The notes beneath the pieces were generated by a model. It saw only the letters and a program-made list of their open reading frames with translations, did no database searches and was not told the DNA's origin. A program made the translations under genes and the position numbers. This document shows positions 16,599 through 39,607 of a DNA stretch of 64,000 nt, in pieces (the first letter of the stretch is position 1; each line of letters starts with the position of its first letter). Source of the stretch: Flavobacteriales bacterium (GTDB lineage: Bacteria; Bacteroidota; Bacteroidia; Flavobacteriales_F; PHOS-HE28); NCBI GenBank assembly GCA_030584065.1, contig CP129489.1:3081497-3145496 (forward strand). Reading direction: 5' to 3'.

Positions 16599-19500
16599 AT
16601 GAAACAGGCACTGCTCTGGGTGCTTGGGGTGCTCCTGACCGGGCTGCTCCATGCACAGACGGGAACCGAGTTCTGGATGGCCCCTCCGGACGTGACCCTG
16701 CGGCATAACATGCCGGGGGACGAGCCGATCTTCCTGAATGTCGCCACGGGCAATGCGGCGGCCACGGTCACCGTGTCGCAACCGGCCAATCCGGCCTTCA
16801 ATGGAGGCAGCCCGATCGTGCTGAACGTGCCGGCCAATGCGGCCGTGCGCTACAACATGACCTCGCTGAAGGCCCAGTTGGAGACGCGCCCCACCAATTC
16901 GGTGCGCAACACCGGCCTGCTGATCCAGTCCACGGCCGACATCACCTGCTACTACGAGAGCAGCAACACGAACAACCCGGACATCATGGCGCTGAAGGGC
17001 GCCAACGGCCTTGGCACCGAGTTCTACATACCGCTGCACAAGCATGCGCCCTTCTACAACCACAACTTCTCGCCGAACAACGCCGATCTGGCGTTCGCCT
17101 CGTTCGATATCGTGGCCACGGAGGACAACACCACGGTGCTCATCTATTCGCCCGTGGCGGTGGATGGCCATCCTGCCCTGACCCCCTTCACGGTCACCCT
17201 GAACAGGGGGCAGACCTATTCCTGTGGAAACACCGTTCCCGCCACCCACTTCGATCCCGCCACGCACCCATCTGGCGCGGTGGTCCTGGCCAACAAGCCA
17301 GTTGCCGTTTCCATCAAGGATGACTCGAACCACAACCCGTCCGGCGGGTGCTACGACCTTATGCTCGACCAGATCGTGCCGGTGAACATCCTCGGCACGG
17401 ATTACATCGCCGTGAAGGGCGCTCTGAATCCCACCGGCGATGAGTCGCTCTTCATCATGGCCGTGCAGAACAACACGCAGGTGTTCGTGGACGGAAGCGC
17501 CACGCCGGTGGCCACGCTCTTCGCCGGGCAGTACTACCGGCATGACATGGATTACCTCTCCGGGGGAGGGAACAACTCCACCTACATCTCCGCGAGCAAG
17601 CCGGTATACGCGATCCACGTGACGGGCTTCGGTTGTGAGCAGGGCATGGCGATCCTGCCGCCCTTGAACTGCGCGGGCAGCACCAACCTGAGCTTCACGC
17701 GCTCCACCAGCGAGGCCTTCTTCCTCAATCTGTTGGTGCGCAATGGCTCGCAGGATGACTTCGTGGTGACGGGTCCTGGCACGGCAACGATCCCGGCTTC
17801 GGCGTTCCAAGCGGTGCCCGGCACGGCCGGTGCCTGGATGGCGGCCCGGATTCAGTACAACACCACGCAGGTGCCGGTGAACCAAGCCTTCATGGTCACC
17901 AATACCTCTGACGTGTTCTCGCTGGCCATCATCAATGGGGGGGGCGCCACGGGTTGCCGCTACGGCTTCTTCTCCGAGTTCTCCGGCCGCATCGATGTGA
18001 GCGCCGGGCCGGACGTGACCCTCTGCGCCGATCAGGTGGTGCCCTTGGCGGGTACGGTAAGTGGCGGAAGCACCACCGGCATTTGGACGACGAACGGCAG
18101 CGGCACCTTCAGCCCGAGCGCCACCGACCTGAACGCCACCTACGAGCCGAGCCTCGGGGATATCGCCTTGGGCACGGTAACGTTGACGCTCACCTCCACC
18201 GGCAACTGCACGCCTGTGAGCGACAGCCGGGTGGTCACCTTCGCTCCGCGACCGCTGCCTGAGGCCGGTCCGGACCAGCTGGTGTGCTCCAACAACCCGC
18301 AGGTAACGCTCAACGGATCCGTCCTCAATGCACTTGGCGGCGTATGGACGGGTGGATCGGGCACCTTCCTGCCGGCCAATAGCAACCTGAACGCCACCTA
18401 CACGCCGACCGCTGCGGAGATCACGGCGGGCTCGGTGCGGCTATACCTCGCCACCACCGGCAACGGCGTGTGCCAGGCCGTTGAGGACAGTGTGCTCATC
18501 ACCTTCACTGCTTCGCCCACGGTGAATGCCGGCGCGGACCAGTCGCTGTGCTCGAACAACGCCGCAGCAGTCCTGAGCGGCTCGTTCACGGTGGCCACGG
18601 GTGTGATCTGGAGCGGCGGTTCTGGCAGTTTCGATCCGAGCACCACCAACCAGAACGTGACCTACACGCCCACCGCAGCCGAGATCGCCAGCGGCAGTGT
18701 GACGCTCACCCTCACCACCACGGGTAATGGCAATTGCGTGGCGGTGAGCGACCAGGTCACCCTGACCTTCACGCCGGGCCCCACGGCCAATGCGGGAGCG
18801 AACGGTTCGGTCTGCGCCAACAATGCCGCGGTAAGCCTGAACGGGGCCGTCACGGTGGCCACGGGCGGCATCTGGAGCGGCGGCACCGGTGTGTTCACAC
18901 CGGGCAACACTGCGCTGAACGCCACCTACACGCCGACCGCTGCGGAGATCGCCGCAGGCTCGCTGACACTGACGCTGACCACCACGGGCAACGGCACGTG
19001 CGTGGCCGCCACGAGCAACCGGACGATCACCTTCACACCGGCACCGACGGTGAGCGCCGGCGCGAACGGAACCGTATGCGCGAACAACAGCGCCATCAAC
19101 CTGAACGGCACTGTTTCGGGTGCGGCTGGTGGTGTGTGGAGCGGTGGAACGGGGTCCTTCGCACCGAACAGCAGTGCGCTCAATGCGGTGTATACGCCGA
19201 GCGCCGCCGAGGTCACTGCGGGCAGTGCGACGCTCACGCTCACCACCGTCGGCAACGGCACCTGCAACGCTGAGAGCGCGCAGGTCACCTACGCCATCAC
19301 GTCGGCTCCCACGGCCAACGCAGGCAGCGACCGGGTGGTGTGCGCGAACAATGCGGCGGTCACCCTGAACGGCAGCTTCACGGTCGCCACGGGCGGCGTG
19401 TGGAGCGGTGGCGCGGGCACCTTCGACCCCAGCACCACCAACATGAACGCGGTCTATACGCCCACTGCAGCTGAGATCGCCAACGGCAACGTCACGCTCA

Positions 19501-22500
19501 CGCTCACCACCACTGGCAATGGTTCGTGCAGCGCGGTGACGGACAACATGGTGATCAGCTTCACGCCTGCGGCAATGGTGAACGCGGGTGCACCGGTGTC
19601 GGTCTGCGCCAACAATGCGGCACTGGCCCTGAACGGCAGCGTTACCGGTGCCACGGGTGGCGCTTGGAGCGGCGGTGCGGGTACGTATGCGCCGAACAAC
19701 ACCATGCTGAACGCCACCTACATGCCCACGGCCTCGGAGATCGCAGCGGGAACGCTGACGCTCACCCTGACGAGCACTGGCAACGGTACGTGCCTGCCCG
19801 TGTCAAGCGACCGCATCATCACGTTCACACCGGCTCCCGTGGTAGATGCAGGTGTGAACGGCAGTGTCTGCGCCAACAACAGCGCCATCAGCCTGAACGG
19901 TTCGGTGACCGGTGCTGCGGGCGGCACTTGGAGCGGTGGAGGGGGCACCTTCGCCCCCAGCAGCACCGCACTGAACGCCACCTACACACCTACGGCCGCC
20001 GAGCGCGCAGCGGGCACGGTGACCCTCACCCTCACCAGTACGGGAAATGGAACCTGCAATCCGGTGAGCGACCAGGTCACTTTCAGCATCACACCGGCCC
20101 CCACCGCCAATGCGGGCGCCGATCAGACGTTGTGCAGCAACAACCCCGTGGCCACGCTCAACGGTAGCTTCACAGTGGCCACAGGTGGCGTATGGAGCGG
20201 CGGCAACGGCAGCTTCGACCCGAGCACCACCAACATGAACGCGACCTACACGCCCACCGCGGCGGAGATCGCGAACGGCAGCGTGACACTCACGCTCACC
20301 ACCACCGGCAACGGCAGCTGCAACCCGGTGAGCGACAACATCACCTTGAACTTCACGCCCTCGCCCGTAGTGAACGCCGGGGTGGACGTGTCGCTCTGCG
20401 CGAACAATGCAGCCATTGCGCTCAACGGCAGCGTTACCGTGGCAACGGGCGGCGCATGGACCGGCGGACTGGGCAGCTTCACCCCGAACAACAGCGCGCT
20501 CAACGCCACCTATACGCCCACTGCGGCGGAGATCGCGGCGGGATCCTTGACGCTCACCCTGACGAGCACAGGCAATGGCACCTGCACTGCGGTATCCGAC
20601 AGCCGGGTCATCACCTTCACGCCGGCACCTACGGTGGATGCCGGAATGAACGGAACGGTATGCGCCAACAATGCGGCCATTGACCTGAACGGTGCGGTCA
20701 CCATAGCCACCGGCGCGATCTGGAGCGGCGGCACCGGCAGCTTCAGCCCGAACAACAGCACGTTGACCGCCACTTATACCCCGAGCGCTGCGGAACGTGC
20801 GGCTGGTACCGTGACGCTCACCCTGACCAGCATCGGCAACGGCACCTGCAATGCCGTGAGCGACCAGGTCACCTACACCATCACCCCAGCACCCACGGTC
20901 ACCGCAGGAGCCAACCAGACGCTATGCGGCAACAATGCGAACGCCATCTTGAACGGCGGATACACCGTAGCCGCGGGCATCATCTGGAGCGGCGGTGCGG
21001 GCACCTTCACGCCGGGCAACACGGCGGTGAACCCGGTGTACACACCAACGGCAACGGAGATCGCCAATGGCGGTGTGACGCTCACCGCCACGACAACAGG
21101 TGTCGGAGCATGTCTCGCCGTGAGCGATGCAATGACGCTGAGCTTCACCCCCTCGCCCACCGCCAACGCAGGTGCTGATGTAACGCTTTGCGCGAACAAC
21201 TCCAGCGTGGCGTTGAACGGGAGCATCACCCTGGCGACCGGTGGCGTTTGGAGCGGTGGAGCGGGGACCTACACCCCGAACAACACTGCGCTCAACGCCA
21301 CCTATACACCCACTGCGGCTGAGGTCGCCGGGGGCATCCTCACCTTGACACTGAGCACCACCGGCAACGGCACGTGCAATGCCGCGACCGACAGTCGCAT
21401 CATCACCTTCACCCCGGCGCCGGTCGTGGATGCCGGAGCCAATGGTGTCGTCTGCTCGAACGCGTCCACCATTGCTCTGAATGGCAGTGTGATCGGAGCA
21501 GGCGGTGGTGTATGGAGCGGCGGTACGGGGACCTTCAACCCGAACAGTACCGCGCTGAACGCGACCTATCTGCCCAGTGCTGCAGAGCGCGCAGCAGGCT
21601 CGGTGACCCTCACGCTCACCAGCACCGGCAATGGCCTGTGCAATGCGGTGAGCGATGCGGTCACCTACACCATTTCGGCGGCCCCTACGGCCAATGCCGG
21701 TGCCGATCAGGCACTGTGCAGCAACAACCCGGCGGCGGCCTTGACCGGGGGCTTCACCGTGGCTACCGGTGGTGTTTGGAGCGGTGGCGCAGGCACCTTC
21801 TTCCCCAGCACGACCAACATGAACGCGACCTACACGCCCACTGCGGCAGAGATCGCGAACGGCAGCGTGACCCTCACACTCACCACCACGGGCAACGGCC
21901 TGTGCAACCAGGTGAGCGACAACATCACGTTGAACTTCACGCCCTCGCCCACGGTGAACGCCGGTGCCGATGCATCGGTATGCGTGAACAACCCGGTGGT
22001 ATCCTTGAGCGGGGCCGTCACCATCGCAACGGGCGGTATTTGGAGCGGCGGTGCCGGATCATTCACGCCGAACAACACCGCGCTGAACGGAACCTACACG
22101 CCAACCGCAGCTGAACTTGCAGCGGGCACCGTCACATTGACCTTGACCACCACCGGGAATGGCAACTGCACAGCGGTGTCGGATAGCCGCGTAATCACAT
22201 TCACGCCTGCGCCGATCGTGAACGCAGGAACCGCAGCGTCGGTCTGTGCGAACGCACCAGTGATGAGCTTGAACGGTTCAGTGAGCGGTGCGACCGGTGC
22301 CATCTGGAGCGCTGGTGCAGGAACTTTCACGCCGAACAACACCACGCTGAACGCCACCTACACGCCGACCGCAGGGGAGATCGCGAATGGAAGCGTCACC
22401 TTCACCCTGACCTCGGCTGGCAACGGTAATTGCAGCGCGGTCAGCAGCCAGGTCACGTACACGATCACGCCGGCACCAACGGCCAACGCCGGGGCGAACA

Positions 22501-25500
22501 TTTCGCTCTGCTCAAACAATGCCAACGCTGCCTTGAACGGTAGTGTCACGGTGGCCACTGGTGGTGTCTGGAGCGGCGGCAACGGCACCTTCGCACCGAG
22601 CAACACCAACCTGGGTGCGGTTTACACGCCAAGCCCCGCGGAGATCGCGAACGGAACGGTCACGCTAACCCTCACCACCACGGGCAATGGCCTGTGCGGG
22701 GCGGTGAGCGACAACGTTCAGCTCACCTTCACGCCCTCACCCACGGTGAACGCCGGTGCTGACGTAGCCATCTGCGCGAACAACGCTGCGGTGGCCCTGA
22801 ACGGTGCAGTGGGGGGAGCGACGGGTGGTGTATGGAGCGGTGGCAACGGTTCGTTCACGCCGAACAATACCGCACTGAACGCTGTGTACACACCCACTGC
22901 AGCGGAGATCGCGAACGGCATCCTTACGCTCACGCTGACGAGCACGGGCAATGGCAACTGCAACGCGGTGTCCGATGAACGAGTGATCACCTTCACGCCC
23001 GCACCGGTGGTCACTGCCGGTGTCAACGGTACGGTATGCGCGAACAACGCCACCATCACGCTGGCCGGTTCCGTCGTAGGTGCGACCGGTGGTGTTTGGA
23101 GCGGTGGTGCGGGCACCTATGCCCCCAACAACGCCACCTTGAACGCGGTGTACACACCGACCGCAGCTGAGCGCGCTGCTGGTAGTGTGAACCTCACGTT
23201 GACCAGCACGGGTAACGGTAACTGCAGCGCCGTGAGCGATCAGGTATCCTGGACCATCAGCCCTGCACCAATTGCCAACGCTGGTGCGGACCAGACGCTT
23301 TGTGCGAACAACCCGGTGGCCACTTTGAACGGGGGCTTCACCGTGGCGTCCGGAGGTTTGTGGAGCGGTGGAGCAGGCACCTTCAGCCCCAGCGCGAGCA
23401 ACATGAACGCGAGCTACACGCCCGCCGCGGCCGAGATCGTGAGCGGGAATGTCACGCTCACGCTCACCACCACGGGCAACGGTCTGTGCAACCAGGTGAG
23501 CGACAACATTTCCTTGAACTTCACGCCGGCACCCACGGTGAACGCAGGATTGGATGCCAGCTTCTGCGCGAACAATGCCGCCATCGGCCTGAACGGCAGC
23601 GTCACCATTGCGAGCGGCGGTATCTGGAGCGGTGGTCTGGGCAGCTTCACGCCCAACAATACCACGCTCAACGCCACCTACACGCCGACCCCTGCGGAGA
23701 TCGCGGCGGGCACGCTTACGCTCACACTGACCAGTACGGGCAACAATACTTGCACGGCGGTATCGGACAGCCGGGTGATCACATTCACGCCGGCACCCAC
23801 GGTGGATGCTGGGGCGAACGGCACGGTGTGTGCCAACAATGCTTCCATCAACTTGAACGGCAGTGTGACGGTCGCCACAGGTGCCATTTGGAGCGGTGGA
23901 ACTGGAACGTTCACGCCCAACAACAGCACCTTGAACGCCATCTACCTGCCGAGCGCTGCCGAGCGTGCTGCGGGTACGGTCACCCTCACGCTCACGACCG
24001 TGGGCAATGGCACTTGTTCGCCTGTGAGCGATCAGGTCACCTACACCATCACACCGGCCCCCACGGCGAACGCCGGCGCTGACCGCGTGCTCTGCGCCAA
24101 CAACGCCGTGACCTCGCTGGCGGGTGCTTTCACCGTGGCGACGGGTGGTGTTTGGAGCGGTGGCAACGGGACCTTCGATCCCAGCACGACGAACATGAGC
24201 GCGATCTACACGCCCACGGCGGCGGAGATCGGCGCTGGCAGTGTGACGCTCACGCTCACGACCACGGGCAACGGCCTGTGCAACGCAGTGAGCGACCAGG
24301 TGCTGCTCACCTTCACCGACGCGCCGACCGCCAATGCAGGTCCGGATGTGACGGTATGCGCCAACAATGCCGCCGTACCCTTGGGCGGTAGCGTGGTCAC
24401 GGCCACGGGCGGAGTGTGGAGCGGTGGTACGGGAACCTTCAGCCCTAGTGCCAACGCGCTGAACGCGACCTACACACCGGGTGCTGCGGACATTGCCGCC
24501 GGTCAGATCACCTTGACGCTGACCTCCACGGGCAACGGGAACTGCGCTGCCGCTACGGATACGCGCGTCATCACGTACACGCCAGCACCGATCGTGAACG
24601 CCGGCCCGGATGGCCTGGTGTGCGCGAACGCACCGCTCATCAGTCTGAACGGCGCCGTGAACGGTGCCGCGGGTGGCGTATGGAGCGGTGGGTCCGGCGT
24701 GTTCTCGCCGAACAGCATCACGCTCAATGCCACCTACATGCCTACTGCGGCCGAGATCGCCAGCGGCAGCGTGACGCTCACCCTCACCTCGGCAGGCAAC
24801 GGTCTGTGCAACCCTGTCACGGACCAGGTGACCTATACCATCACTCCGGCACCCACGGTGAGCGCCGGTGCTGACCAGACGCTTTGTGGCAACAACGCCA
24901 ATGCGGTGCTGAACGCCGCGATCACGGTGGCCACCGGCGTGCAGTGGTCAGGTGGAGCGGGGGTCTACGCTCCTGGGAGCACGGCACAGAACATCACCTA
25001 CCAGCCTTCGCCGATCGAGGTCGCGAACGGGAGTGTTACGCTGACGGTGACCACCACGGGCAATGGCATCTGCGCGGCTGTTAGCGACCTGGTGACCCTC
25101 GACTTCACTCCGGCTCCGATCGCGAACGCAGGCCTGGACCAAACGGTGAGCAGTAACAATGCCAACACCACGCTGGCGGGCTCCTTCAGCATCGCCACGG
25201 GGATCATCTGGAGCGGTGGTGCGGGCACCTACGCTCCGAACAACACCACGGCGAACGCGGTATACACGCCCACGGCCGCTGAGATCGCCGCGGGTAGCGT
25301 GACCCTGACGATGACCACCACGGGCAACGGTGCCTGCGCGTCATCGAGCGATGCGATGACCATCACCTTCGGTGCAGCGCCCACGGCCAATGCCGGTCCC
25401 GACCAGAGCATCTGTGCGAACAACGCAAGTGTGGTGTTGAACGGTCAGGTGACCATTGCCACAGGTGGCATCTGGAGTGGCGGAACGGGCACTTTCACGC

Positions 25501-28500
25501 CCAACAGCGGCGCCCTGAACGCGACCTATGTGCCGAGCGCTGCTGAGATCGCCGCGGGAACGGTGACACTCACCCTCACCACGGTGGGCAATGGCAACAG
25601 CCTGCCCGTGACCGACCAGGTGACCATCACCATCACACCGGCACCGGTGGTGAACGCGGGTACGAACCTCACTGTCTGCGCCAACCAATCGACCGCGCAG
25701 CTGGCCGGGACCGTGAACAATGCGACCGGCGGTGTGTGGAGCGGCGGATCGGGCACCTTCAACCCGGGCATTTCCAACTTGAACGCGACCTACACGCCCA
25801 CCCCGGGTGAGATCTCCGCCGGTACCGTTACCCTCACGCTCACCAGCACGGGCAATGGCTTGTGCAATGCTGTCAGTGACCAGGTGGTGATCACCGTGGC
25901 ACCTGCACCAGTGGTGAACGCCGGCCTGGACGGAACTGTGTGTGCGAACAACGCCGCAGTGCAGCTGGCAGCTTCGGTTGGCAATGCAGGCGGTGGCATC
26001 TGGAGCGGCGGCACCGGTGGCTTCTCGCCGAGCATCACCGCACTGAACGCCGTCTATACCCCGAGCACCACCGAGCTCAACAACGGTTCGGTGACACTGT
26101 ACCTCACCAGCACCGGCAACGGCACCTGCGCGCAGGTCACGGACGAGGTGTTCATCGTCTTCACACAGGCCCCGGTCGTCAATGCAGGTCCTGATGTGAC
26201 CGTTTGCGCGAACGGTGCAACGGTCAGCCTGAGCGGTACAGTGAGCATCGCCGGTGGTGGTGTGTGGAGCGGCGGCAGCGGCAGTTTCAGCCCGAACGCC
26301 AACACCCTGAATGCGACCTACACACCCAGTCCGGCGGAAGTGGCCCTGGGCACGGTGACCCTCACGCTCACATCCACCCAGAACGGCTTGTGCAACGCAG
26401 TGAGCGACCAGATGACCATCAGCATCATCGCCGCTCCGGTGGCGGAAGCAGGCAACAACCTCTTCGTGTGCAGCAACAACGCCAGTGTGCAGCTCGGCGG
26501 TAGTGTGGCCGGCGCGGGCGGTGGTCAATGGAGCGGTGGTGCGGGAACGTTCACGCCGTCCATCGCATCGCTGAACGCCGTGTACACGCCGACTCCCACC
26601 GAGATCGCAGCAGGTACGCTGAACCTAACCCTCACCACCATCGGCAATGGCAATTGCGTGCCGGTAACGGACAACGTGCTCATCACCTTCACGGCCGCTC
26701 CCACGGCGGAAGCGGGTGTCGGCGGTGTATTCTGTGCGAACAATGCCAGCATCCAACTGAACGGTAGTGTTACCGTGGCCAATGGTGGGTCCTGGTCCGG
26801 CGCGCAGGGCACCTTCGCCCCGAACGCCAACAGCCTCAGCGCAGTGTACCAACCTTCTGTGGGTGAACTGGCCGCTGGCAGCGTGACCCTGACCCTGACC
26901 ACCACTGGCAACAACGGCTGCACGGCGGTGAGCGACGAGGTGACCTACACCTTTACGCCTGCGCCTACTGCGAATGCAGGTGTGGACCTGAACAGTTGTG
27001 CGAACAGTTCCACCGTACAGCTCAATGGTGCGGTCACCGTGGCCGCTGGAGGGCTGTGGACCGGTGGCACAGGCGGCTTCAGCCCGAACAGTGGTACGCT
27101 GAACGCTACCTACACGCCGAGCGCCGCCGAGATCGCAGCGGGTACGGCCACGCTGACGCTTACTACGGTGGGCAATGGCTTGTGCAATGCCGTAAGCGAT
27201 CAGGTGGTCATCACCATCGCCCCTGCGCCCATCGTGGATGCTGGTGCTGCGATCCAAGTGTGTGCCAACAACGCCAGCGCTGCCCTCAACGGCAATGTGC
27301 TCAATGCGGCCGGTGGTGTATGGAGCGGTGCAGGCACGTTCAGCCCCAACGCAACGACGCTGAACGCCATCTACACGCCCACCGCGGCTGAGATCACGGC
27401 AGGCAACGCGACCATCACCCTCACCAGCACCGGCAATGGCCTGTGTGCAGCAGTGAGCGACAATGTCGTGATCACCTTTACCCCGGCACCGATCGTGGAC
27501 GCGGGGGTCGCCCAGACGCTTTGTGCGAACAACGCGAACGCCCAGCTCGCCGGAAATGTGTCGGGTGCCATCGGTGGGACCTGGAGCGGTGGTGCAGGAA
27601 CGTATGGGCCTGCGGCCAACAGCCTGGGTGCGGTCTACACGCCGACCGCTGCGGAACTCAACGCAGGCAACCTATGGCTGTACCTCACCTCCACGGGTAA
27701 TGGTGGTTGCAACGCCGCCCTTGATTCGGTGCAGCTGTTCTTCACACAGGCGCCCACCGTGGATGCTGGTATGAACGCCCATGTGTGTGCCAATGCTGCG
27801 GAAGTGGCGCTGAATGGCGCGGTGACCGTAGCTACAGGTGGCGTATGGAGCGGTGGTTCGGGCAGCTTCGGCCCGAACGCGAATACGCTGAGTGCGACCT
27901 ATACCCCGAGCCTCGCTGAGATGGCTGCGGGTAGTGTCACGCTTACGCTCACCACCACAGGCTTCGGCAATTGCACGGCTGTGCAGGACAACATGGTCAT
28001 CACCATCGATCCTGTACCTGTCGTCAACGCTGGTCCCGACCAGGCCATCTGCGCGAACAACCCCAACATCCAGCTCAATGGCTTTGTGGGCAACGCGCCG
28101 GGTGCCATCTGGAGCGGCGGTGCAGGCACGTACGTCTCAGGTGTTACGGCCACGGCCACACAATACATTCCCACGGCGGGTGAGATCGCTGCGGGTGTGA
28201 TCACCTTCACGCTCACCAGCACGGGCACCACCATCTGCAACGCGATGAGCGACCAGATGACCGTCACCTTCACTGGTGCGCCCATTGTGGATGCCGGTAC
28301 CGACCTCGCGATCTGTGCCAACAACAGCGATGTACAGCTGAACGGCAACGTGATCAATGCCAACGGTGGAGCCTGGTCCGGCGGTAACGGATCCTTCTCA
28401 CCGGCCAACAATGTGTTCGCTCCGGTGTACACTCCGACCGCTGCTGAACTGGCTGCTGGTAGTGTGCTCCTCACGCTCACCAGCACAGGCAATGGCAGCT

Positions 28501-31500
28501 GCTTCGCCGTGAACGATCAAGTGCTCATCACCTTCACGCCGGCACCATCGGTGAATGCTGGTGCGGATCTGACCGTCTGTGCGAACAACCCTACGGTCGA
28601 CCTCAGTGGTGCACTGACGGTAGCCAACGGCGCCACATGGAGCGGCGGCCTGGGGACCTATTCACCAGACGCCAACGCGCTGAACGCCCAGTACACGCTG
28701 ACGCCCTTCGAGCTGCAGCAGGGTACCATCACCCTCACCTTGACCAGCACCGGCAATGGCAACTGCCTTGCGGTGAACGATCAACTGAACATCAGCGTGA
28801 CCCCGGCACCTGTGGTGAACGCTGGTGCGGACATCACGGCTTGCTCCAACGCCCTGGATGTGGCGTTGAACGGAAGCGTGAGCGCTGGTGCGACCACGGG
28901 TCAGTGGACCACCTCGGGAACAGGATCGTTCGCGCCGAACGCGAGCGCCCTCACCGCGACCTATCTGGCGAGCAGCCTGGATTCGCTCAATGGCGGTGTA
29001 CAGCTCATCCTGACGTCCACCGGCAACGGACTCTGCGCAAGCGTGAGCGATACGTTGGACCTGATCATCCTGCCCAACGCGATCGCCAATGCCGGGCCTG
29101 ATCAAGTGGTGTGCGCGACAGAAGCGACCATTGCATTGAACGGCACCATCACCGGCAACGCCACACAAGGCACATGGACCACTACCGGAGCAGGTTCGTT
29201 CGCGCCGAACGCAAGCGCGCCGAACGCGGTGTACACCATTGCTCCCAGCGATGCGCTCGCTGGCAACGTCACCTTCACCTGGAGCGTGAACAGCTGCGAC
29301 AATGCCATGGATCAGATGACACTGACCATCGTGCCGGAGTCGCAGGTGGACGCAGGCAACGATCTGGTGGTGTGCGTGGACGACCTCGATATCCTCATCA
29401 ATGGCAGCGTGAGCGGCGCTTCCACCACGGGTGTATGGAGCACGCTCGGCACGGGCACCTTCCAGAACGCCACGAGCGCACTGGCCAACATCTATCGGGC
29501 GAGTTCACAGGATTCCCTGGCCACCGGCGTGGACCTGATCCTCACGGCCACCAGTACCAGCGTGTGCCCTGCGGCGATCGATACCATCCACATCGACATT
29601 CTGCCCTTCGGGACGGTGAACGCCGGTGCGGACATGACCGCCTGTGCCAACAATGCAGTGGTGCAGCTGAACGGCAGCCTGCTGGGCGATGCCACACAAG
29701 TACAGTGGACCACCAGCGGTACCGGCCAGTTCTTCCCGAACAACACGGTACTCACGCCCACTTATGTGCCCAGCGCACTCGACACGTTGATCGGTGAAGT
29801 GACCCTGACGCTGAGCGCACTGAACAGCTGCAACAGCGCCAACGATGCCATGGTCTTGAGTCTCACTCCAGCGCCCTACGTGAACGCTGGTCCGGACCAG
29901 ACCTACTGCGATGGCGTCAGCACGTTCGACCTGCAGGGCATCGTGTCCGGCATCACCGATCTGGGCTTGTGGAGCACCACGGGTACGGGTACGCTGGCTT
30001 CGACCACTGACCTCAGCACTGCGTACACCGCAAGTGCCGCCGATATCCAGAACGGGTCTATCACCTTCACACTGACCTCCCAGAACAACGGCACCTGCAA
30101 TGCCGTCACCGATGCGATGACCATCTACCTCACCGATGGTCTGCAGGCCAATGCAGGTCCTGACATGAGCGTGTGCGTGCTCGATGATCATGCTCAATTG
30201 CAAGGTCAGATCGTCAACGGTTCGCCATCGGGTATCTGGTCCAGCACGGGTACCGGTTCCTTCGAGCCCAGTGCCGATGTGCTCAATGCTCAGTACCATT
30301 TCTCGCCCGCCGATGTGGCCAATGGGAGCGTAGTACTCACGCTCCTCAGCACCAACACGGGCACCTGCGCTCCTGTGCAGGACCAGTTGGTGCTCACCTT
30401 CGGCAACAGCAGCTTCGCCTTTGCCGGGGACGATCAAGTGGTGTGCGCCAATGCGCCCATCGTGCAGCTCGCTGGTAATGTGAGCGGCGCGCAAGGTGGA
30501 CAGTGGACCACCGGTGGCAGTGGCTTCTTCAGCAACACCACCGCCACCAACAGCACCTACACGCTCAGCGCTGCCGATATCGCCAATGGCGAGGTCCAGC
30601 TCACCCTCACCACGGTGGGCAATGGGCTCTGTGCGGCCGCCAGTGATGTGGTCACCATCAGCGTGAACGCATTGCCCCAGGTGAACGCCGGCGCGGACAT
30701 CGTGGCCTGCACGGCCGCTCCCGTGCAGCTGGTGGCCAATGTGGCGAACGTACCCACCGTGAGCTGGAGCACCAGCGGCACCGGCAGCTTCCTGGATGCC
30801 AATGCCTTGGCCACACTCTATACACCGAGCGCTGCTGATAGTACCGCTGGCAGTGTGGTGCTCACCGCCACCACAACGGGTGTGGAGCCCTGTGCCGCGG
30901 TCAGCGATCAGCTCGTGATCACCTTTGGTGGTGGACTCGCTGCGACCGCTGGACCGGATGTGGTGGCCTGCAGTACCGATGCCAACATCGTCCTGAACGG
31001 TGCAGTGGCCGGAACCACCACGGGCATCTGGAGCAGCACCGGTACGGGTTCCTTCTTGCCCAGCGCCACTGCGCTCAACGCCACTTACGTGCCCGGCCCG
31101 GCCGACTTCGTGATCGGTGATGTGTCGCTGGTGCTCTCCACCACCAACAACCAAGGTTGTGCAGCCGGGCGCGATACCCTCGTGGTGAGCTACCATGTGC
31201 CCCCCACCGTGGATGCCGGTGCAAGTGTGTTGCTGTGTGATGGGCTGGAGGATGTGTCCCTCAACGGGCAGGTGCAGAACGCCGGCAGCGTGCAGTGGTT
31301 CACCACGGGCACGGGCAGCTTCAGCCCCTCGAACACCGTGGCCAACGCGGTCTACACGCCTACAGCGAACGATAGCATCGCAGGCGGCGTGTACCTCATC
31401 CTCACCGGATTCGGAACAGGTACGTGCGGCAACGTGAGCGACTCGCTTTTCGTGGACATCGGTCCCACGCGCATCGCCAATGCTGGCACCGACCAAGTGA

Positions 31501-32765
31501 TCTGTGCCGATGGTGGCGCGATCCAACTGAACGGTGCGGTGATCGGTGTGAGCGGTGGCCAATGGAGCACCACCGGTACCGGCACTTTCGCACCGGACCA
31601 CACCAGCCTCACCAGCACCTACGTACCCAGTGCCACGGACCTGGTCTTCGGCGAACTGCGCTTCGTGCTCAGCACCACCGGAAACCTGGGCTGCCCTGCA
31701 GCGCACGATACCCTGGTGGTGGCCCTGCAGCAGATGCCCACGGTGAACGCCGGCCAGGACATCAACGTGTGCGATGCCACTACAGCAGTTCAGCTCGGCG
31801 GTTCCTTCACGGGAGCATCGGGTGTGCAATGGTCGAGCAACGGTGCCGGTGTATTCCTGCCGAACACGGCGGATGCCAACGCCACCTACCAGCCGGGCGT
31901 CACGGATGGTCAGCTGGGCTCGGTGCGCATGGTCCTCACCACCACCGGCAACGGTGTGTGTGCGGCAGCGCGTGATACCGTGCTCCTGAGCTTCGTGAAC
32001 CCCCTGACGGCCGACTTCACCTGGAGCAATGCCTGTGCCGGAGGGCAGACGCAGTTCACCAGTACCAGTACCACCTCGGGTGCGCCCATCGTGGGCTGGA
32101 ACTGGGAATTCAGCAATGGAACCACTGGCAGCGGTCCGCAGACCGGTAGCACCTTTGCCACGCAGGGCCAGTACACCGCCACGCTCACGGTCTTCGCCCA
32201 GAACGGCTGCAGCAGCAGTGTCACCCGTACCGTTGATGTGCTGCAAGCGCCTGTGGCGGGCTTCAGCATCAGCGGCGATTCCTTCACCGACACGCCGATC
32301 GAGTTCACAGACAGCTCCTTCGGGGCCACCGGCTGGCAGTACGACTTCGGCGATGGCAACGGAGCCCTGGCGGCCGAACCGGTGCATGAGTACACCGAGG
32401 CCGGTCAGTACATCATCGTGCAGACCGTGAGCAATGCCAACGGCTGCACCGATCGCGACTCGCTGTTGATGAGCATCGCCGTGAAGGACATCCTGCCACC
32501 CAAGCTGCCGAATGCGTTCAGCCCTAACGGCGATGGCGTCAATGATGTGTTCTACGTCCGCGGCGGTCCGTTCGAGACCATCGATCTGAAGATCTACAAC
32601 GGCTGGGGCGAGCTCATCTTCCAGACCACCGATCCCACCTTCGGCTGGGACGGCACCCACGACGGCCGGCCGGAGATCAACGGGGTCTATGTGTACACGG
32701 TCCAGGCCACATTGGTCGATGGCCAGCAGCACGAGCGGTCGGGTAAGGTCACACTCATGCGATAA
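16599..32765 (+). CDS. Giant secreted repeat protein with IgGFc-binding-like domain and T9SS type B sorting domain
   Basis: 5388 aa, perhaps about half a megadalton. A signal peptide (1-19, ending LLHA-Q) is followed by an N-terminal domain (about 20-465) resembling the IgGFc-binding family (GTEFWMAPP, FDIVATEDNTTVLIYSP). Next come 53 tandem units of about 88 aa (466-5134), each with a G-x-W core and a cysteine pair about 62 residues apart. Two PKD-like domains (about 5138-5215 and 5220-5296; the second has WQYDFGDGNG) precede a gliding-motility-associated C-terminal domain (5299-5388: PNAFSPNGDGVNDVF, IYNGWGELIF, GWDGTHDG), the type B signal for T9SS export. It is probably an adhesin or surface fibre. 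It is followed 19 bp later by a PorP/SprF-like gene, the usual partner of type B cargo. The frame is unbroken throughout. Confidence 0.93.
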   Translation: MKQALLWVLGVLLTGLLHAQTGTEFWMAPPDVTLRHNMPGDEPIFLNVATGNAAATVTVSQPANPAFNGGSPIVLNVPANAAVRYNMTSLKAQLETRPTNSVRNTGLLIQSTADITCYYESSNTNNPDIMALKGANGLGTEFYIPLHKHAPFYNHNFSPNNADLAFASFDIVATEDNTTVLIYSPVAVDGHPALTPFTVTLNRGQTYSCGNTVPATHFDPATHPSGAVVLANKPVAVSIKDDSNHNPSGGCYDLMLDQIVPVNILGTDYIAVKGALNPTGDESLFIMAVQNNTQVFVDGSATPVATLFAGQYYRHDMDYLSGGGNNSTYISASKPVYAIHVTGFGCEQGMAILPPLNCAGSTNLSFTRSTSEAFFLNLLVRNGSQDDFVVTGPGTATIPASAFQAVPGTAGAWMAARIQYNTTQVPVNQAFMVTNTSDVFSLAIINGGGATGCRYGFFSEFSGRIDVSAGPDVTLCADQVVPLAGTVSGGSTTGIWTTNGSGTFSPSATDLNATYEPSLGDIALGTVTLTLTSTGNCTPVSDSRVVTFAPRPLPEAGPDQLVCSNNPQVTLNGSVLNALGGVWTGGSGTFLPANSNLNATYTPTAAEITAGSVRLYLATTGNGVCQAVEDSVLITFTASPTVNAGADQSLCSNNAAAVLSGSFTVATGVIWSGGSGSFDPSTTNQNVTYTPTAAEIASGSVTLTLTTTGNGNCVAVSDQVTLTFTPGPTANAGANGSVCANNAAVSLNGAVTVATGGIWSGGTGVFTPGNTALNATYTPTAAEIAAGSLTLTLTTTGNGTCVAATSNRTITFTPAPTVSAGANGTVCANNSAINLNGTVSGAAGGVWSGGTGSFAPNSSALNAVYTPSAAEVTAGSATLTLTTVGNGTCNAESAQVTYAITSAPTANAGSDRVVCANNAAVTLNGSFTVATGGVWSGGAGTFDPSTTNMNAVYTPTAAEIANGNVTLTLTTTGNGSCSAVTDNMVISFTPAAMVNAGAPVSVCANNAALALNGSVTGATGGAWSGGAGTYAPNNTMLNATYMPTASEIAAGTLTLTLTSTGNGTCLPVSSDRIITFTPAPVVDAGVNGSVCANNSAISLNGSVTGAAGGTWSGGGGTFAPSSTALNATYTPTAAERAAGTVTLTLTSTGNGTCNPVSDQVTFSITPAPTANAGADQTLCSNNPVATLNGSFTVATGGVWSGGNGSFDPSTTNMNATYTPTAAEIANGSVTLTLTTTGNGSCNPVSDNITLNFTPSPVVNAGVDVSLCANNAAIALNGSVTVATGGAWTGGLGSFTPNNSALNATYTPTAAEIAAGSLTLTLTSTGNGTCTAVSDSRVITFTPAPTVDAGMNGTVCANNAAIDLNGAVTIATGAIWSGGTGSFSPNNSTLTATYTPSAAERAAGTVTLTLTSIGNGTCNAVSDQVTYTITPAPTVTAGANQTLCGNNANAILNGGYTVAAGIIWSGGAGTFTPGNTAVNPVYTPTATEIANGGVTLTATTTGVGACLAVSDAMTLSFTPSPTANAGADVTLCANNSSVALNGSITLATGGVWSGGAGTYTPNNTALNATYTPTAAEVAGGILTLTLSTTGNGTCNAATDSRIITFTPAPVVDAGANGVVCSNASTIALNGSVIGAGGGVWSGGTGTFNPNSTALNATYLPSAAERAAGSVTLTLTSTGNGLCNAVSDAVTYTISAAPTANAGADQALCSNNPAAALTGGFTVATGGVWSGGAGTFFPSTTNMNATYTPTAAEIANGSVTLTLTTTGNGLCNQVSDNITLNFTPSPTVNAGADASVCVNNPVVSLSGAVTIATGGIWSGGAGSFTPNNTALNGTYTPTAAELAAGTVTLTLTTTGNGNCTAVSDSRVITFTPAPIVNAGTAASVCANAPVMSLNGSVSGATGAIWSAGAGTFTPNNTTLNATYTPTAGEIANGSVTFTLTSAGNGNCSAVSSQVTYTITPAPTANAGANISLCSNNANAALNGSVTVATGGVWSGGNGTFAPSNTNLGAVYTPSPAEIANGTVTLTLTTTGNGLCGAVSDNVQLTFTPSPTVNAGADVAICANNAAVALNGAVGGATGGVWSGGNGSFTPNNTALNAVYTPTAAEIANGILTLTLTSTGNGNCNAVSDERVITFTPAPVVTAGVNGTVCANNATITLAGSVVGATGGVWSGGAGTYAPNNATLNAVYTPTAAERAAGSVNLTLTSTGNGNCSAVSDQVSWTISPAPIANAGADQTLCANNPVATLNGGFTVASGGLWSGGAGTFSPSASNMNASYTPAAAEIVSGNVTLTLTTTGNGLCNQVSDNISLNFTPAPTVNAGLDASFCANNAAIGLNGSVTIASGGIWSGGLGSFTPNNTTLNATYTPTPAEIAAGTLTLTLTSTGNNTCTAVSDSRVITFTPAPTVDAGANGTVCANNASINLNGSVTVATGAIWSGGTGTFTPNNSTLNAIYLPSAAERAAGTVTLTLTTVGNGTCSPVSDQVTYTITPAPTANAGADRVLCANNAVTSLAGAFTVATGGVWSGGNGTFDPSTTNMSAIYTPTAAEIGAGSVTLTLTTTGNGLCNAVSDQVLLTFTDAPTANAGPDVTVCANNAAVPLGGSVVTATGGVWSGGTGTFSPSANALNATYTPGAADIAAGQITLTLTSTGNGNCAAATDTRVITYTPAPIVNAGPDGLVCANAPLISLNGAVNGAAGGVWSGGSGVFSPNSITLNATYMPTAAEIASGSVTLTLTSAGNGLCNPVTDQVTYTITPAPTVSAGADQTLCGNNANAVLNAAITVATGVQWSGGAGVYAPGSTAQNITYQPSPIEVANGSVTLTVTTTGNGICAAVSDLVTLDFTPAPIANAGLDQTVSSNNANTTLAGSFSIATGIIWSGGAGTYAPNNTTANAVYTPTAAEIAAGSVTLTMTTTGNGACASSSDAMTITFGAAPTANAGPDQSICANNASVVLNGQVTIATGGIWSGGTGTFTPNSGALNATYVPSAAEIAAGTVTLTLTTVGNGNSLPVTDQVTITITPAPVVNAGTNLTVCANQSTAQLAGTVNNATGGVWSGGSGTFNPGISNLNATYTPTPGEISAGTVTLTLTSTGNGLCNAVSDQVVITVAPAPVVNAGLDGTVCANNAAVQLAASVGNAGGGIWSGGTGGFSPSITALNAVYTPSTTELNNGSVTLYLTSTGNGTCAQVTDEVFIVFTQAPVVNAGPDVTVCANGATVSLSGTVSIAGGGVWSGGSGSFSPNANTLNATYTPSPAEVALGTVTLTLTSTQNGLCNAVSDQMTISIIAAPVAEAGNNLFVCSNNASVQLGGSVAGAGGGQWSGGAGTFTPSIASLNAVYTPTPTEIAAGTLNLTLTTIGNGNCVPVTDNVLITFTAAPTAEAGVGGVFCANNASIQLNGSVTVANGGSWSGAQGTFAPNANSLSAVYQPSVGELAAGSVTLTLTTTGNNGCTAVSDEVTYTFTPAPTANAGVDLNSCANSSTVQLNGAVTVAAGGLWTGGTGGFSPNSGTLNATYTPSAAEIAAGTATLTLTTVGNGLCNAVSDQVVITIAPAPIVDAGAAIQVCANNASAALNGNVLNAAGGVWSGAGTFSPNATTLNAIYTPTAAEITAGNATITLTSTGNGLCAAVSDNVVITFTPAPIVDAGVAQTLCANNANAQLAGNVSGAIGGTWSGGAGTYGPAANSLGAVYTPTAAELNAGNLWLYLTSTGNGGCNAALDSVQLFFTQAPTVDAGMNAHVCANAAEVALNGAVTVATGGVWSGGSGSFGPNANTLSATYTPSLAEMAAGSVTLTLTTTGFGNCTAVQDNMVITIDPVPVVNAGPDQAICANNPNIQLNGFVGNAPGAIWSGGAGTYVSGVTATATQYIPTAGEIAAGVITFTLTSTGTTICNAMSDQMTVTFTGAPIVDAGTDLAICANNSDVQLNGNVINANGGAWSGGNGSFSPANNVFAPVYTPTAAELAAGSVLLTLTSTGNGSCFAVNDQVLITFTPAPSVNAGADLTVCANNPTVDLSGALTVANGATWSGGLGTYSPDANALNAQYTLTPFELQQGTITLTLTSTGNGNCLAVNDQLNISVTPAPVVNAGADITACSNALDVALNGSVSAGATTGQWTTSGTGSFAPNASALTATYLASSLDSLNGGVQLILTSTGNGLCASVSDTLDLIILPNAIANAGPDQVVCATEATIALNGTITGNATQGTWTTTGAGSFAPNASAPNAVYTIAPSDALAGNVTFTWSVNSCDNAMDQMTLTIVPESQVDAGNDLVVCVDDLDILINGSVSGASTTGVWSTLGTGTFQNATSALANIYRASSQDSLATGVDLILTATSTSVCPAAIDTIHIDILPFGTVNAGADMTACANNAVVQLNGSLLGDATQVQWTTSGTGQFFPNNTVLTPTYVPSALDTLIGEVTLTLSALNSCNSANDAMVLSLTPAPYVNAGPDQTYCDGVSTFDLQGIVSGITDLGLWSTTGTGTLASTTDLSTAYTASAADIQNGSITFTLTSQNNGTCNAVTDAMTIYLTDGLQANAGPDMSVCVLDDHAQLQGQIVNGSPSGIWSSTGTGSFEPSADVLNAQYHFSPADVANGSVVLTLLSTNTGTCAPVQDQLVLTFGNSSFAFAGDDQVVCANAPIVQLAGNVSGAQGGQWTTGGSGFFSNTTATNSTYTLSAADIANGEVQLTLTTVGNGLCAAASDVVTISVNALPQVNAGADIVACTAAPVQLVANVANVPTVSWSTSGTGSFLDANALATLYTPSAADSTAGSVVLTATTTGVEPCAAVSDQLVITFGGGLAATAGPDVVACSTDANIVLNGAVAGTTTGIWSSTGTGSFLPSATALNATYVPGPADFVIGDVSLVLSTTNNQGCAAGRDTLVVSYHVPPTVDAGASVLLCDGLEDVSLNGQVQNAGSVQWFTTGTGSFSPSNTVANAVYTPTANDSIAGGVYLILTGFGTGTCGNVSDSLFVDIGPTRIANAGTDQVICADGGAIQLNGAVIGVSGGQWSTTGTGTFAPDHTSLTSTYVPSATDLVFGELRFVLSTTGNLGCPAAHDTLVVALQQMPTVNAGQDINVCDATTAVQLGGSFTGASGVQWSSNGAGVFLPNTADANATYQPGVTDGQLGSVRMVLTTTGNGVCAAARDTVLLSFVNPLTADFTWSNACAGGQTQFTSTSTTSGAPIVGWNWEFSNGTTGSGPQTGSTFATQGQYTATLTVFAQNGCSSSVTRTVDVLQAPVAGFSISGDSFTDTPIEFTDSSFGATGWQYDFGDGNGALAAEPVHEYTEAGQYIIVQTVSNANGCTDRDSLLMSIAVKDILPPKLPNAFSPNGDGVNDVFYVRGGPFETIDLKIYNGWGELIFQTTDPTFGWDGTHDGRPEINGVYVYTVQATLVDGQQHERSGKVTLMR
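17994..32000 (+). repeat. 53 tandem 264-bp (88-aa) repeat units
   Basis: Units open with [VA][ND]AG-x(5)-C, continue with LNG-x(6)-[TG]G-x-W-[ST]GG-x-G-x-F-x-P, then Y-[TL]-P-[ST]-A-x-E-[IR], and close with TLT-[ST]-TGNG-x-C followed by SD-x-[VR] and FTPAP. Counting the AG starts gives 53, and the span divided by 53 is 88.1 aa. From unit 2 to unit 36 every checked unit start falls on an exact 264-bp grid. The first indel is in unit 36 (SGAG for SGGAG). Units 42-53 are the most divergent and vary in length. Confidence 0.92.
18522..24857 (+). repeat. Eight copies of a three-unit, 792-bp higher-order repeat
   Basis: Units 3-26 cycle A-B-C. A units (3, 6, 9 ... 24) mostly have NMNATYTPTAAEIANGSV-like cores and end SDN-x-TLNFTPSP. 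B units (4, 7 ... 25) end SDSRVITFTPAP. C units (5, 8 ... 26) carry AERAAG in most copies and end SDQVTYTITPAP. A units start at 18522, 19314, 20106, 20898, 21690, 22482, 23274 and 24066, exactly 792 bp apart. Units 27-29 look like a ninth, decayed copy. Confidence 0.88.
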
Positions 32766-32784
32766 ACGGAAGCCCTGAACAATC

Positions 32785-33774
32785 ATGAGCATCTACAAAC
32801 GCCTTTGCCACCTGACCATTGCCTTCGGCGTCAGCGCTGCGGCCCATTCTCAGGATGGCCAGCTGTCGCAGTATGAAGCAGCACCGGTATTGCTGAATCC
32901 CGCGCTAACAGGGATGTACGAGAATGCGGAGTTCCGCATGGCCTGCAACGTCCGCAGCCAGTGGACCAGCCTGTCGAGCAATTTCCTCACGACGGCGTTC
33001 GCCTATGACCTTTCGTTCCAGAAGCGTTTCGGGGCAGGGATGTACCTGACCAATTACAACATGGCAGGAATCGTGAACACCTTCCAAGCGGGCGCCTCGG
33101 GGGCCTACAACGTCTTCGACCCGAAGGGGCATCATACCCTGTCCGCGGGGGTGCAGCTGGGCCTTGTCTACAAGAAGATCAATGACCAACAGCTGGTCTG
33201 GGATGCCCAGTACAGCAACGGCAACTTTGATTCGGACCTGCCATCCGGGGAGAACCTTCAGCGCGGTGCCCGCCTGATGCCGGACGTATCGCTTGGAATC
33301 GCCTATCGCAGCACCAGTCCACGGGCGGCGGTGAAGCCGTTCGCCAACGTTGCGCTGTTCCATGTCACCACGCCCGACGAGTCCATCCTGCGGAGCACGA
33401 AGAGCGATCTGCCGATCCGCTATTCGATCAATGCCGGCCTGCGGGTGAATATCAACGAGCAGTTCGTCCTCATTCCGCAGGCCCTAGGCATGCGGCAGGG
33501 GGCTGACCAGCAGATCCACGCCGGCATGCTGGCCGAGTTCGTCATCGGTGGTTCGGTGTACAGCGCGCTGTGCGGCGCCTCTTATCGCGTGGACGATGCC
33601 GTCGTTGCCCATGTGGGCCTGAAGCACAAGAACAGCGCCTACCGGTTCAGCTACGATGTGAATACGTCTCCCCTGCGCTCGTATTCCCGGAGCAACGGGG
33701 CTTTCGAGTTCTCCATCGTGTACTACGGGACGCACGCCGGCCGCGAACGGCGGCTGGTAAGCAACGCGTTCTGA
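32785..33774 (+). CDS. PorP/SprF family type IX secretion membrane protein
   Basis: 329 aa with a signal peptide (about 1-22, ending AHSQ) and a beta-barrel-like body of alternating strands. The family opening QLSQYEAAPVLLNPALTGMYENAEFR is clear, followed by QWTSLSSNFLTTAFAYD. PorP/SprF proteins are outer-membrane partners of T9SS type B cargo; SprF is needed for export of SprB in Flavobacterium. It lies 19 bp downstream of the giant gene on the same strand and probably shares its transcript. Its stop is only 8 bp from the stop of convergent atpG. Confidence 0.9.
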   Translation: MSIYKRLCHLTIAFGVSAAAHSQDGQLSQYEAAPVLLNPALTGMYENAEFRMACNVRSQWTSLSSNFLTTAFAYDLSFQKRFGAGMYLTNYNMAGIVNTFQAGASGAYNVFDPKGHHTLSAGVQLGLVYKKINDQQLVWDAQYSNGNFDSDLPSGENLQRGARLMPDVSLGIAYRSTSPRAAVKPFANVALFHVTTPDESILRSTKSDLPIRYSINAGLRVNINEQFVLIPQALGMRQGADQQIHAGMLAEFVIGGSVYSALCGASYRVDDAVVAHVGLKHKNSAYRFSYDVNTSPLRSYSRSNGAFEFSIVYYGTHAGRERRLVSNAF

Positions 33775-33782: not shown

Positions 33783-34661
33783 TCAGCCCTTCAGCGCCTC
33801 AGCGCCGCCTACGATCTCGAGGATCTCGTTCGTGATGCTCGCTTGGCGCGCCTTGTTGTAGGTCAGCTTCAGGTCCTTCAGCAGCGCATCGGCGTTGTCG
33901 GTGGCCTTGTGCATGGCGGTCATGCGTGCACCGTGCTCCGCAGCGAAACTGTCGAGCAGCGCCTTATAGAGCTGGATCTTCAGGCTCTTGGGGATGATTC
34001 CCTCCACGATGGTGGCCCTGTCGGGTTCCATGATGTGGTCTGCCTTGGTGCTGCCTCCGGATCCCTTCTCGGCGGGCGCGATGGGTAGGTACTGCTCCTC
34101 GGTGGTGATCTGCACCGCGGCGTTCTTGAACTTGTTGTAGAAGAGCACCACGCGGTCGTAGCGGCCCTCGGCGAACTGCTTCATGAGGAGCTCCGCAACC
34201 GGTGCGGCCTTGTCGAAGCTGAGGCCGTCGAACAGCGAAGCCAGGTCCGTCGGCAGGTTGCCATCCAGCATCCCGCTGCGGCGATAGAGGTCCATGGCCT
34301 TCTTTCCGATGGGCAGGATGCTCACCTCCTGGTTGTTCGACCGTGCCTCGGCAATGGCTTTGCGCATCAGGCGGAACACCTGGGTGTTGAATGCGCCAGC
34401 CAGCCCGCGGTTGCTCACGATGGGCACCAGCAGCACCTTCTTCACCTCTCGCTGGGCGCTGTACACCCCCTCGCTGCTGTCGAGGCTTGCGCTCACATTG
34501 CCCAGGATGGTCTGCAGCTTCTCGGCATAGGGGCGCATGCGCACGATGGCGTCCTGCGCACGGCGCAGCTTTGCCGCACTCACCATCTTCATGGCTGCGG
34601 TGATCTGCTTGGTGCTGTTCACCGAGACGATCCTGCTCCGTACCTCCTTCAGGCTGGGCAT
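33783..34661 (-). CDS. atpG: ATP synthase F1 subunit gamma
   Basis: 292 aa. This is the central stalk of the F1 motor. The N-terminal helix MPSLKEVRSRIVSVNSTKQITAAMKMVSAAKLRRAQ and the C-terminal helix (KLTYNKARQASITNEILEIVGGAEAL) are the conserved coiled-coil parts. The length is normal. It is the last gene of the local atp cluster and lies 66 bp after atpA, with a strong hairpin between them. The beta and epsilon genes, often separate in Bacteroidota, are not here. Confidence 0.96.
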   Translation of the reverse strand: MPSLKEVRSRIVSVNSTKQITAAMKMVSAAKLRRAQDAIVRMRPYAEKLQTILGNVSASLDSSEGVYSAQREVKKVLLVPIVSNRGLAGAFNTQVFRLMRKAIAEARSNNQEVSILPIGKKAMDLYRRSGMLDGNLPTDLASLFDGLSFDKAAPVAELLMKQFAEGRYDRVVLFYNKFKNAAVQITTEEQYLPIAPAEKGSGGSTKADHIMEPDRATIVEGIIPKSLKIQLYKALLDSFAAEHGARMTAMHKATDNADALLKDLKLTYNKARQASITNEILEIVGGAEALKG

Positions 34662-34688
34662 TGTACAGTGCTGCTGGTTCGGGGCCTC

Positions 34689-34711
34689 GGGCCGACCCCC
34701 AGGGTCGGCCC
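34689..34711. other. Strong hairpin between atpA and atpG
   Basis: GGGCCGACCC-CCA-GGGTCGGCCC is a perfect 10-bp stem with a 3-nt loop. No T-tract follows on the minus strand, so it is more likely a processing, stability or translation-tuning hairpin than a terminator. Confidence 0.65.
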
Positions 34712-34727
34712 CATTCGGTCTCCGCTA

Positions 34728-36308: not shown

Positions 36309-36320
36309 GGCCTTCTTGCT

Positions 36321-37375: not shown

Positions 37376-37420
37376 GACGCTGAGGTTGGGTCGATGACGA
37401 GGCGTTGCCGTGCGGCGCCC

Positions 37421-37672
37421 TTAGAGCACCATGGCCAGCAGGCCCACCACGATGCCGAACATGGCGGCGCCTTCCACGAGGGCGGCGGCGAGGATCATGT
37501 TGGCGCGGATGTCGTTGGTGGCTTCGGGCTGGCGGGCGATGGCCTGCATGGCGTCACCACCGATGCGGCCGATGCCGATGCCGGCGGCCAGGGCGGCCAC
37601 GCCTGCGCCGATGGCGGCGAAACCGAAGTGACCATTCTCAGCGACGGCTTGCAGGAGGAACGAGAGGAACAT
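37421..37672 (-). CDS. atpE: ATP synthase F0 subunit c
   Basis: 83 aa hairpin of two glycine- and alanine-rich helices (about 15-40 and 57-82) joined by the polar loop RQPE. The ion-carrying carboxylate is Glu67 in AALVEGAAMF. The extra Gln and Ser/Thr ligands typical of sodium-binding rings are not seen, so proton use is likely. It lies 25 bp after atpB. Confidence 0.95.
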   Translation of the reverse strand: MFLSFLLQAVAENGHFGFAAIGAGVAALAAGIGIGRIGGDAMQAIARQPEATNDIRANMILAAALVEGAAMFGIVVGLLAMVL

Positions 37673-37697
37673 GACGTTGTTGGGTTTGCGGGTTGTT

Positions 37698-38852: not shown

Positions 38853-38884
38853 CACGGACAAGGGGCACCCCTTCTTTGCGGCCG

Positions 38885-39575: not shown

Positions 39576-39607
39576 CGGCTAAGCTCCGGCTGGGACGCCC
39601 GGCATCA

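Follow-up and report, generated by a model that had tools for sequence, protein, structure and literature searches.

Proteins built from long series of similar domains are known from several settings, and those closest to the one considered here are surface proteins of bacteria and filament-associated proteins of muscle. The grappling-hook protein GhpA has been described from Aureispira sp. CCB-QB1 (PMC13319060, PMC11205867), and MpAFP is reported to carry about 120 copies of an identical 104-residue repeat (PMC4083281). Type B cargo of the type IX secretion system (T9SS) is reported to bind or depend on PorP/SprF-like partners (PMC9143113, PMC12618676). Super-repeats have been described in nebulin and titin, and the domain pattern of titin is said to reflect the filament on which titin lies (PMC1553488, PMC7427331). 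Here we analyze a window of 64,000 nucleotides from contig CP129489.1 of a Flavobacteriales bacterium (GCA_030584065.1), the whole stretch of DNA to which the positions below refer. It contains a giant gene (16599..32765, + strand) that starts with ATG and encodes 5388 amino acids (aa): a head, 53 units of about 88 aa, a PKD domain, and a T9SS type B sorting domain. Units 3-26 form a core of three alternating subtypes, A, B, and C, and our analysis shows that among its relatives the array gains and loses mostly whole A-B-C triplets, probably through in-register recombination of domains of the same type, with selection holding the types apart. As MpAFP is described, both are giant bacterial proteins consisting mostly of Ig-like repeats, but the core repeats here fall into three subtypes of roughly 60-70% similarity, and the window contains no near-identical copies. 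Nebulin and titin are, as described, eukaryotic muscle proteins of other families, whereas here the period is three and the protein is bacterial, predicted to be secreted by the T9SS, and has no known partner filament. Judged by title or the start of the abstract, no paper in our literature search described this array or its three-unit length ladder, most subscription papers being outside the scope of that search.

The core (18522..24857, + strand) had been described in an earlier sequence-only reading of the window as eight A-B-C triplets, each of exactly 792 bp and free of insertions or deletions (indels), and this description holds. The A units start at 18522 + 792k (18522, 19314, 20106, 20898, 21690, 22482, 23274, and 24066), the subtype strings give eight triplets, and every unit from 3 to 26 is exactly 88 aa long, with no indel across 6336 bp. 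The same reading had predicted that a DNA identity matrix would show a three-unit periodicity, which is indeed present. Core units are more alike at a distance of three than to their neighbors, as expected for a super-repeat, with 23 of the 24 closer to the units at ±3 than to those at ±1, and in 24/24 the best-matching unit has the same subtype. Mean identity is 0.699 within subtypes and 0.638 between them, and the observed difference of 0.061 was not reached in any of 20,000 permutations of the subtype labels (largest null value 0.028). The linker motifs by which the subtypes had been marked are looser than had been stated: by eye, SDN occurs in 4/8 A units and TDN in a fifth, the exact B linker SDSRVITFTPAP in 3/8 B units, and the exact C linker SDQVTYTITPAP in 2/8 C units, with AERAAG in 5/8. 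Tandem Repeats Finder, run with periods up to 500, reported only a 264-bp array at 18383-20794.

The 53 units were counted with an iterated unit model, which replaced a first unit-count threshold and tiles residues 467-5136 with gaps between units that never exceed six residues; no Pfam or NCBIfam model matches the 88-aa unit. Unit counts depend on this profile, and the tiling is gap-free in nearly all genes, the exceptions being D064 and incomplete proteins that were dropped. D064 (L135) has a 153-residue stretch without a unit match after unit 13, its array being otherwise regular with 62 units above threshold.

Searching for proteins with the head yielded 92 matches, drawn from the 1094 candidates that shared the most words and were 0.55 to 1.75 times the length of the query, limits that cut off the short end of the ladder. 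These include 42 close homologs whose heads are at least 73% identical (the window protein included), 39 of them complete. Our analysis showed that 36 of these 39 have a number of units equal to 2 modulo 3, within a range of 26 to 68, and that the ladder has 13 values (26, 29, 32, 38, 41, 44, 47, 50, 53, 56, 59, 62, and 68). In most of the 42, the core consists of whole A-B-C triplets, 2 to 13 of them according to the subtype strings, some of which are ambiguous (e.g., P0009, P0035, P0041, and P0042). Expansion by whole super-repeat units is thus seen among the homologs, with exceptions at the C-terminal end. Single steps can be observed in very similar proteins: P0059 and P0060 (97.9% identical) differ in length only by one gap of 263 residues, P0058 and P0060 (97.6%) by the same gap plus 26 N-terminal residues, and P0005 and P0006 (96.8%) by a gap of 263 residues, or three units, plus a one-residue gap; in each of these pairs the gap of 263 residues is inside the array. 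A count over 48 pairs, in which 46/46 gaps were multiples of three, was set aside as main evidence because its prefilter on the last nine units and overall identity drops pairs that differ at the C-terminus. A separate observation on array length is that D065 (L133+L134) has 62 units, exactly double the 31 of its near relatives L080 and L090.

Within the genus, the head was found at E values up to 1e-100 in 22 of 45 genomes, including this genome and another of the same species, and was not found at that threshold in the remaining 23, one of which (G054) consists of 9 contigs and is rated 100% complete; the gene therefore looks patchily distributed. Ten genes are complete, with 53 units in the window, G002, G004, and G049, 62 in G016 and G041, 59 in G022 and G044, 41 in G059, and 38 in G018, and all ten counts are 2 modulo 3. 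Units 1-2 (17997..18521, + strand) form a stable N-terminal flank of the array, being reciprocal best matches of units 1-2 in G016, G018, G002, G022, and G004, and the diverged part of the array comprising units 27-53 (24858..32006, + strand) is mostly orthologous position by position to the same part in genus relatives. Comparison with G002, G004, G022, and G016 pairs units 1-2 and most of units 24-53 at the same position as reciprocal best matches, while the best matches of units 3-23 are mostly shifted, mainly by multiples of three; the pattern in G018 is less clear-cut. Unit alignment of the 45 pairs of complete genes, which are not independent, gave 55 gaps, of which 53 are multiples of three, and the other two (17 and 20) both belong to the pair G044-G018. 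Relative to the window, six units are added in G041 behind unit 7 or 8 and three behind unit 35, three are added at each of these places in G044, and 12 are missing in G059. A three-unit indel after unit 35 (window position 27234), outside the A-B-C core, is recurrent, occurring in G041, G044, and P0006.

Since most of the relatives are metagenome assemblies, we considered whether the unit counts could reflect repeats collapsed or expanded during assembly. Several genes stop at contig ends (e.g., G010, G012, G020, G050, G051, and G053), the G041 stretch contains 83 Ns, and there are N gaps in the assembly of the same species, Flavobacteriales bacterium UBA2426. Against this, the genome of the window is a single 3.9-Mb contig, DNA identity between the most similar unit pairs within the genus genes examined is 83-95%, too low for simple collapse, and the ladder appears in several source collections, including P0013 (on a 3.86-Mb contig) and P0062, named Cryomorpha ignava (41 units). 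An origin of the ladder in assembly errors is thus highly improbable.

Three-unit steps are also evident when the relationships between the genes are taken into account. A tree of 107 complete genes shows 68 changes of unit count but only 19 changes of class modulo 3; none of 271 null simulations fell below 29 class changes (mean 38), and a modulo-2 control gave 33 changes, which is not below its null mean of 28. Among independent pairs on this tree, 33 of 41 differ by a multiple of three (P 8e-10), as do 20 of the 22 separated by a distance of up to 0.5 (P 3e-8). An earlier tree of 41 genes gave 10 of 14 pairs, and 8/8 for the nearest. Distant clades fall into another residue class, yet the class is mostly constant inside each clade. 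The trees came from quick searches; incomplete proteins (P0011, P0029, P0039, P0044, P0061, P0064, and P0070) and those without units (P0086, P0088, P0089, P0090, P0091, and P0092) were left out of the count, and 12 near-duplicates with heads within 2 differences were merged, so that the three-unit difference between P0005 and P0006, one of the merged pairs, lies outside the tree counts. Taken with the residue class shared by 36/39 close homologs and the pairs 97-98% identical that lie one triplet apart, the tree supports the expectation of the sequence-only reading that copy number in related strains shifts in steps of 792 bp, in that the changes are mostly of three units (about 792 bp).

That reading had further suggested that the triplets arose by repeated unequal crossing-over of a three-unit block, as in satellite DNA, and that their length was changing recently or still is. 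The spacing of 792 bp is exact and indel-free, relatives with proteins 97-98% identical differ by triplet indels, some relatives carry younger tracts at an offset of 792 (e.g., 585 bp at 90% in G053 and 480 bp at 90% in G059), and the window has one 197-bp tract at 86% at an offset of 1584, all of which would fit recent amplification with ongoing turnover. In the window, however, no 150-bp stretch at an offset of 792 between unit 3 and about unit 36 reaches 0.88 identity. A recent satellite-like higher-order repeat should consist of near-identical blocks with the nearest copies most alike, and neither was found: identity between units of the same subtype is flat, at 0.696-0.706, over distances from 3 to 21. 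Where amino acids are identical, codon identity is 0.522 within and 0.497 between subtypes, compared to 0.446 expected from codon usage, so that synonymous codons are near-saturated. The head in UBA2426 is 100% identical, and this assembly aligns at 99.2% over 12.7 kb and stays collinear to window position 24219 in two further pieces (94.1% over 3.2 kb and 99.3% over 1.5 kb) between scaffold gaps, with no sign of a length difference between the two strains. The triplet and its subtype residues are, in addition, common to lineages far beyond the genus. Because identity is flat with distance, codons are near-saturated, and UBA2426 is collinear, the triplets of the window are old, not recent. A late origin by amplification that is still turning over is thus very unlikely and, for the window array at the resolution used, already contradicted. 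Of the earlier proposal, unequal crossing-over in three-unit steps agrees with the way in which the lengths of relatives change, mostly by three units, but the comparison with satellite DNA misdescribes the window copy, as its triplet is old.

The depth of the triplet was examined by scoring the excess similarity of units at lag 3 in 37 genes, and this excess is positive in 35 and reaches a z of 2.0 or more in 30. Genes with the excess carry record titles such as Flavobacteriales, Bacteroidales, and Cryomorpha ignava, and at least two orders of Bacteroidota have the triplet with shared subtype residues. Counted from the N-terminal unit, the subtype register is the same in 56 of the 78 pairs of 13 lineages (26 expected by chance; the pairs are not independent), and in 59 of 91 with the Cryomorpha-like representative D062 added. 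These counts exclude same-position pairs; a first phase mapping, which same-position units may have driven, was redone without them. Many combinations of column and residue were tested and ranked; among the highest-ranking ones, isoleucine at column 84 and valine at column 9 are each enriched in C units in 12/12 lineages, and leucine at column 35 is enriched in B units in 11/12. In the structural model of the unit, column 84 is where the final strand ends, beside the linker.

How the steps of three arise can be approached through six recent indels. Mean local protein identity around them is 0.67-0.82 at lag 3, compared to 0.52-0.64 at lags 1, 2, and 4, and the longest identical runs are at distance three. 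Because lag-3 identity is highest at these six sites, in-register recombination is the likely cause of the triplet steps. As an A unit is far more like other A units than like B or C, misaligned copies would pair three units apart or at a multiple of three, and whole-triplet steps would follow because of this pairing, with unequal crossing-over between misaligned units of the same type adding or removing whole triplets. The subtypes retain their own amino acids even though synonymous codons are near-saturated, so selection probably keeps the three distinct, and it may also favor whole triplets on top of the recombination bias.

The same homology could also act without any selection. In a purely mutational explanation, an ancestral three-unit duplication left lag-3 homology that has steered recombination since, so that the subtypes are historical and the triplet has no structural meaning. 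Lag-3 similarity is a local maximum at 6/6 recent indels, including the one after unit 35 in P0006, and outside the core, unit numbers at the C-terminal end often change by values not divisible by three, both of which are in agreement with this explanation. We nevertheless consider it somewhat unlikely, as subtype residues outlast great divergence despite near-saturated codons, the isoleucine of column 84 and the leucine of column 35 (both from the head of the ranked list) being examples, and as a three-unit indel is found after unit 35, outside the core, where lag-3 similarity in the window itself is hardly raised. In-register recombination of same-type domains, with selection on the types, is therefore the explanation we favor.

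Several observations weigh against it or against the age and depth given to the triplet. Three complete homologs leave the ladder, P0020 (67 units), P0034 (48), and P0037 (39), by +2, +4, and -2 units at the C-terminal end, and all their remaining gaps are multiples of three; P0048 likewise has two additional units at the C-terminal end, and P0045 and P0043 are separated by gaps of 5 and 2. On the tree of 107 genes, 8 of the 41 independent pairs do not differ by a multiple of three. Third codon positions retain a weak but significant subtype signal (0.505 vs. 0.471), and by these positions alone the best match has the same subtype in 13/24 units, which shows that synonymous saturation is near but not complete. 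Seven of the 37 arrays have a lag-3 excess below a z of 2, with negative values in L062 and L078 and weak ones in L061, L087, L088, L095, and L101, and in the phase test across lineages the Cryomorpha-like group has a rotated or unclear register. Finally, only 167 of the 263 identical DNA runs of at least 25 bp in the ten genus genes are at multiples of three, so the bias to three is strong but not total, and DNA register alone may not account for steps that are almost exclusively of three units.

A likely reason for selection on the types is that three successive domains would form one structural repeat of the shaft, and a three-domain structural period, which the sequence-only reading had also raised, is plausible. 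In a six-unit AlphaFold model, the single domains are confident (pLDDT 93.3), while their arrangement is uncertain (pTM 0.57). The closest solved fold to the unit is that of the shafts of the GhpA grappling hooks (Protein Data Bank entries 9flw, 9fly, 9flp, and others), and the giant protein is predicted to resemble GhpA in having a shaft made of beta-sandwich domains in tandem, alike in fold and spacing. The likeness does not extend to sequence, as no GhpA chain was matched by three units or a six-unit profile at E values up to 1, by the head profile, or by the head at E values up to 10. It is intriguing to consider that the triplet could be a single turn, or a single bundle register, in a GhpA-like rope of several strands that is found on the surface of cells across Bacteroidota, in which A, B, and C each make their own lateral contact, the cell sets the stalk length in whole turns, and the differences between subtypes make recombination insert only whole turns. 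This proposal is speculative and, in our view, rather doubtful; if true, the protein would act as a ruler that counts in threes.

Muscle proteins are among those already known to contain domain super-repeats, and this family would be a bacterial case. Dozens of homologs whose lengths step by about 264 residues, and whose subtypes keep their identity across more than one order, provide a natural experiment in which recombination register, selection on domain subtype, and fiber geometry are linked in a testable way, and three-domain periodicity becomes a prediction for cryo-EM of T9SS surface stalks.

The remaining parts of the gene and its surroundings point to export. The head (residues 1-466, 16599..17996, + strand) has a start that resembles a signal peptide by eye, includes an IgGFc_binding domain (PF17517, residues 136-434, 17004-17900, + strand, E 8.6e-37), and is predicted with confidence by AlphaFold (pLDDT 87.7, pTM 0.88), with no clear match when compared to solved structures. 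After the array come a PKD domain (PF18911, 32025..32237, + strand, E 8.9e-22), with a second PKD stretch in the same search, and a CHU_C / TIGR04131 C-terminal sorting domain of type B (32502..32753, + strand), which reached 3.3e-17 for PF13585 and, with 46.6 bits, scores above the TIGR04131 cut-off of 35. The next gene in the window starts 19 bp past the stop codon of the giant gene and encodes a PorP/SprF-family outer-membrane protein (32785..33774, + strand; TIGR03519 8.5e-48, PF11751 3.4e-36). A neighbor of this family, recognized by eye from a signature sequence, also follows the 9 other complete genes of the genus as well as D061-D064, while the L141 stretch is too short to show it. The genome also encodes the translocon protein SprA (2569 bits), and the T9SS component PorW/SprE is encoded in the window itself (40133-43675). 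From these features we infer that the giant protein is a secreted surface stalk, predicted to be exported by the T9SS, and that the PorP/SprF neighbor is likely its cognate shuttle or anchor. The stalk would then carry the head at its far end and be attached to the outer membrane by its C-terminal sorting domain, through the adjacent PorP/SprF protein. The type B sorting domain and the PorP/SprF gene that directly follows, an arrangement conserved among the relatives that were checked, resemble the SprB/SprF type of cargo as reported (PMC9143113, PMC12618676), but the head of the giant protein is an IgGFc_binding-type domain.

Elsewhere in the window, genes for the ATP synthase gamma, alpha, delta, and A subunits followed by PorW/SprE occupy 33783-43675 (- strand), and a 2024-aa bacterial protein of the alpha-2-macroglobulin type (MG2, A2M, and bMG10) is encoded at 53514-59588 (+ strand). 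An open frame of 1095 aa lies antisense to the end of the array (29505-32792, - strand) and is probably an effect of GC-rich codon use. In the rest of the genome, diverged copies of the 88-aa unit are present in open frames of 1854 and 2901 aa (G000:C1:1359330-1361912 and G000:C1:2764017-2764667), and there is a weak relative of the head at C1:3411929-3412942.

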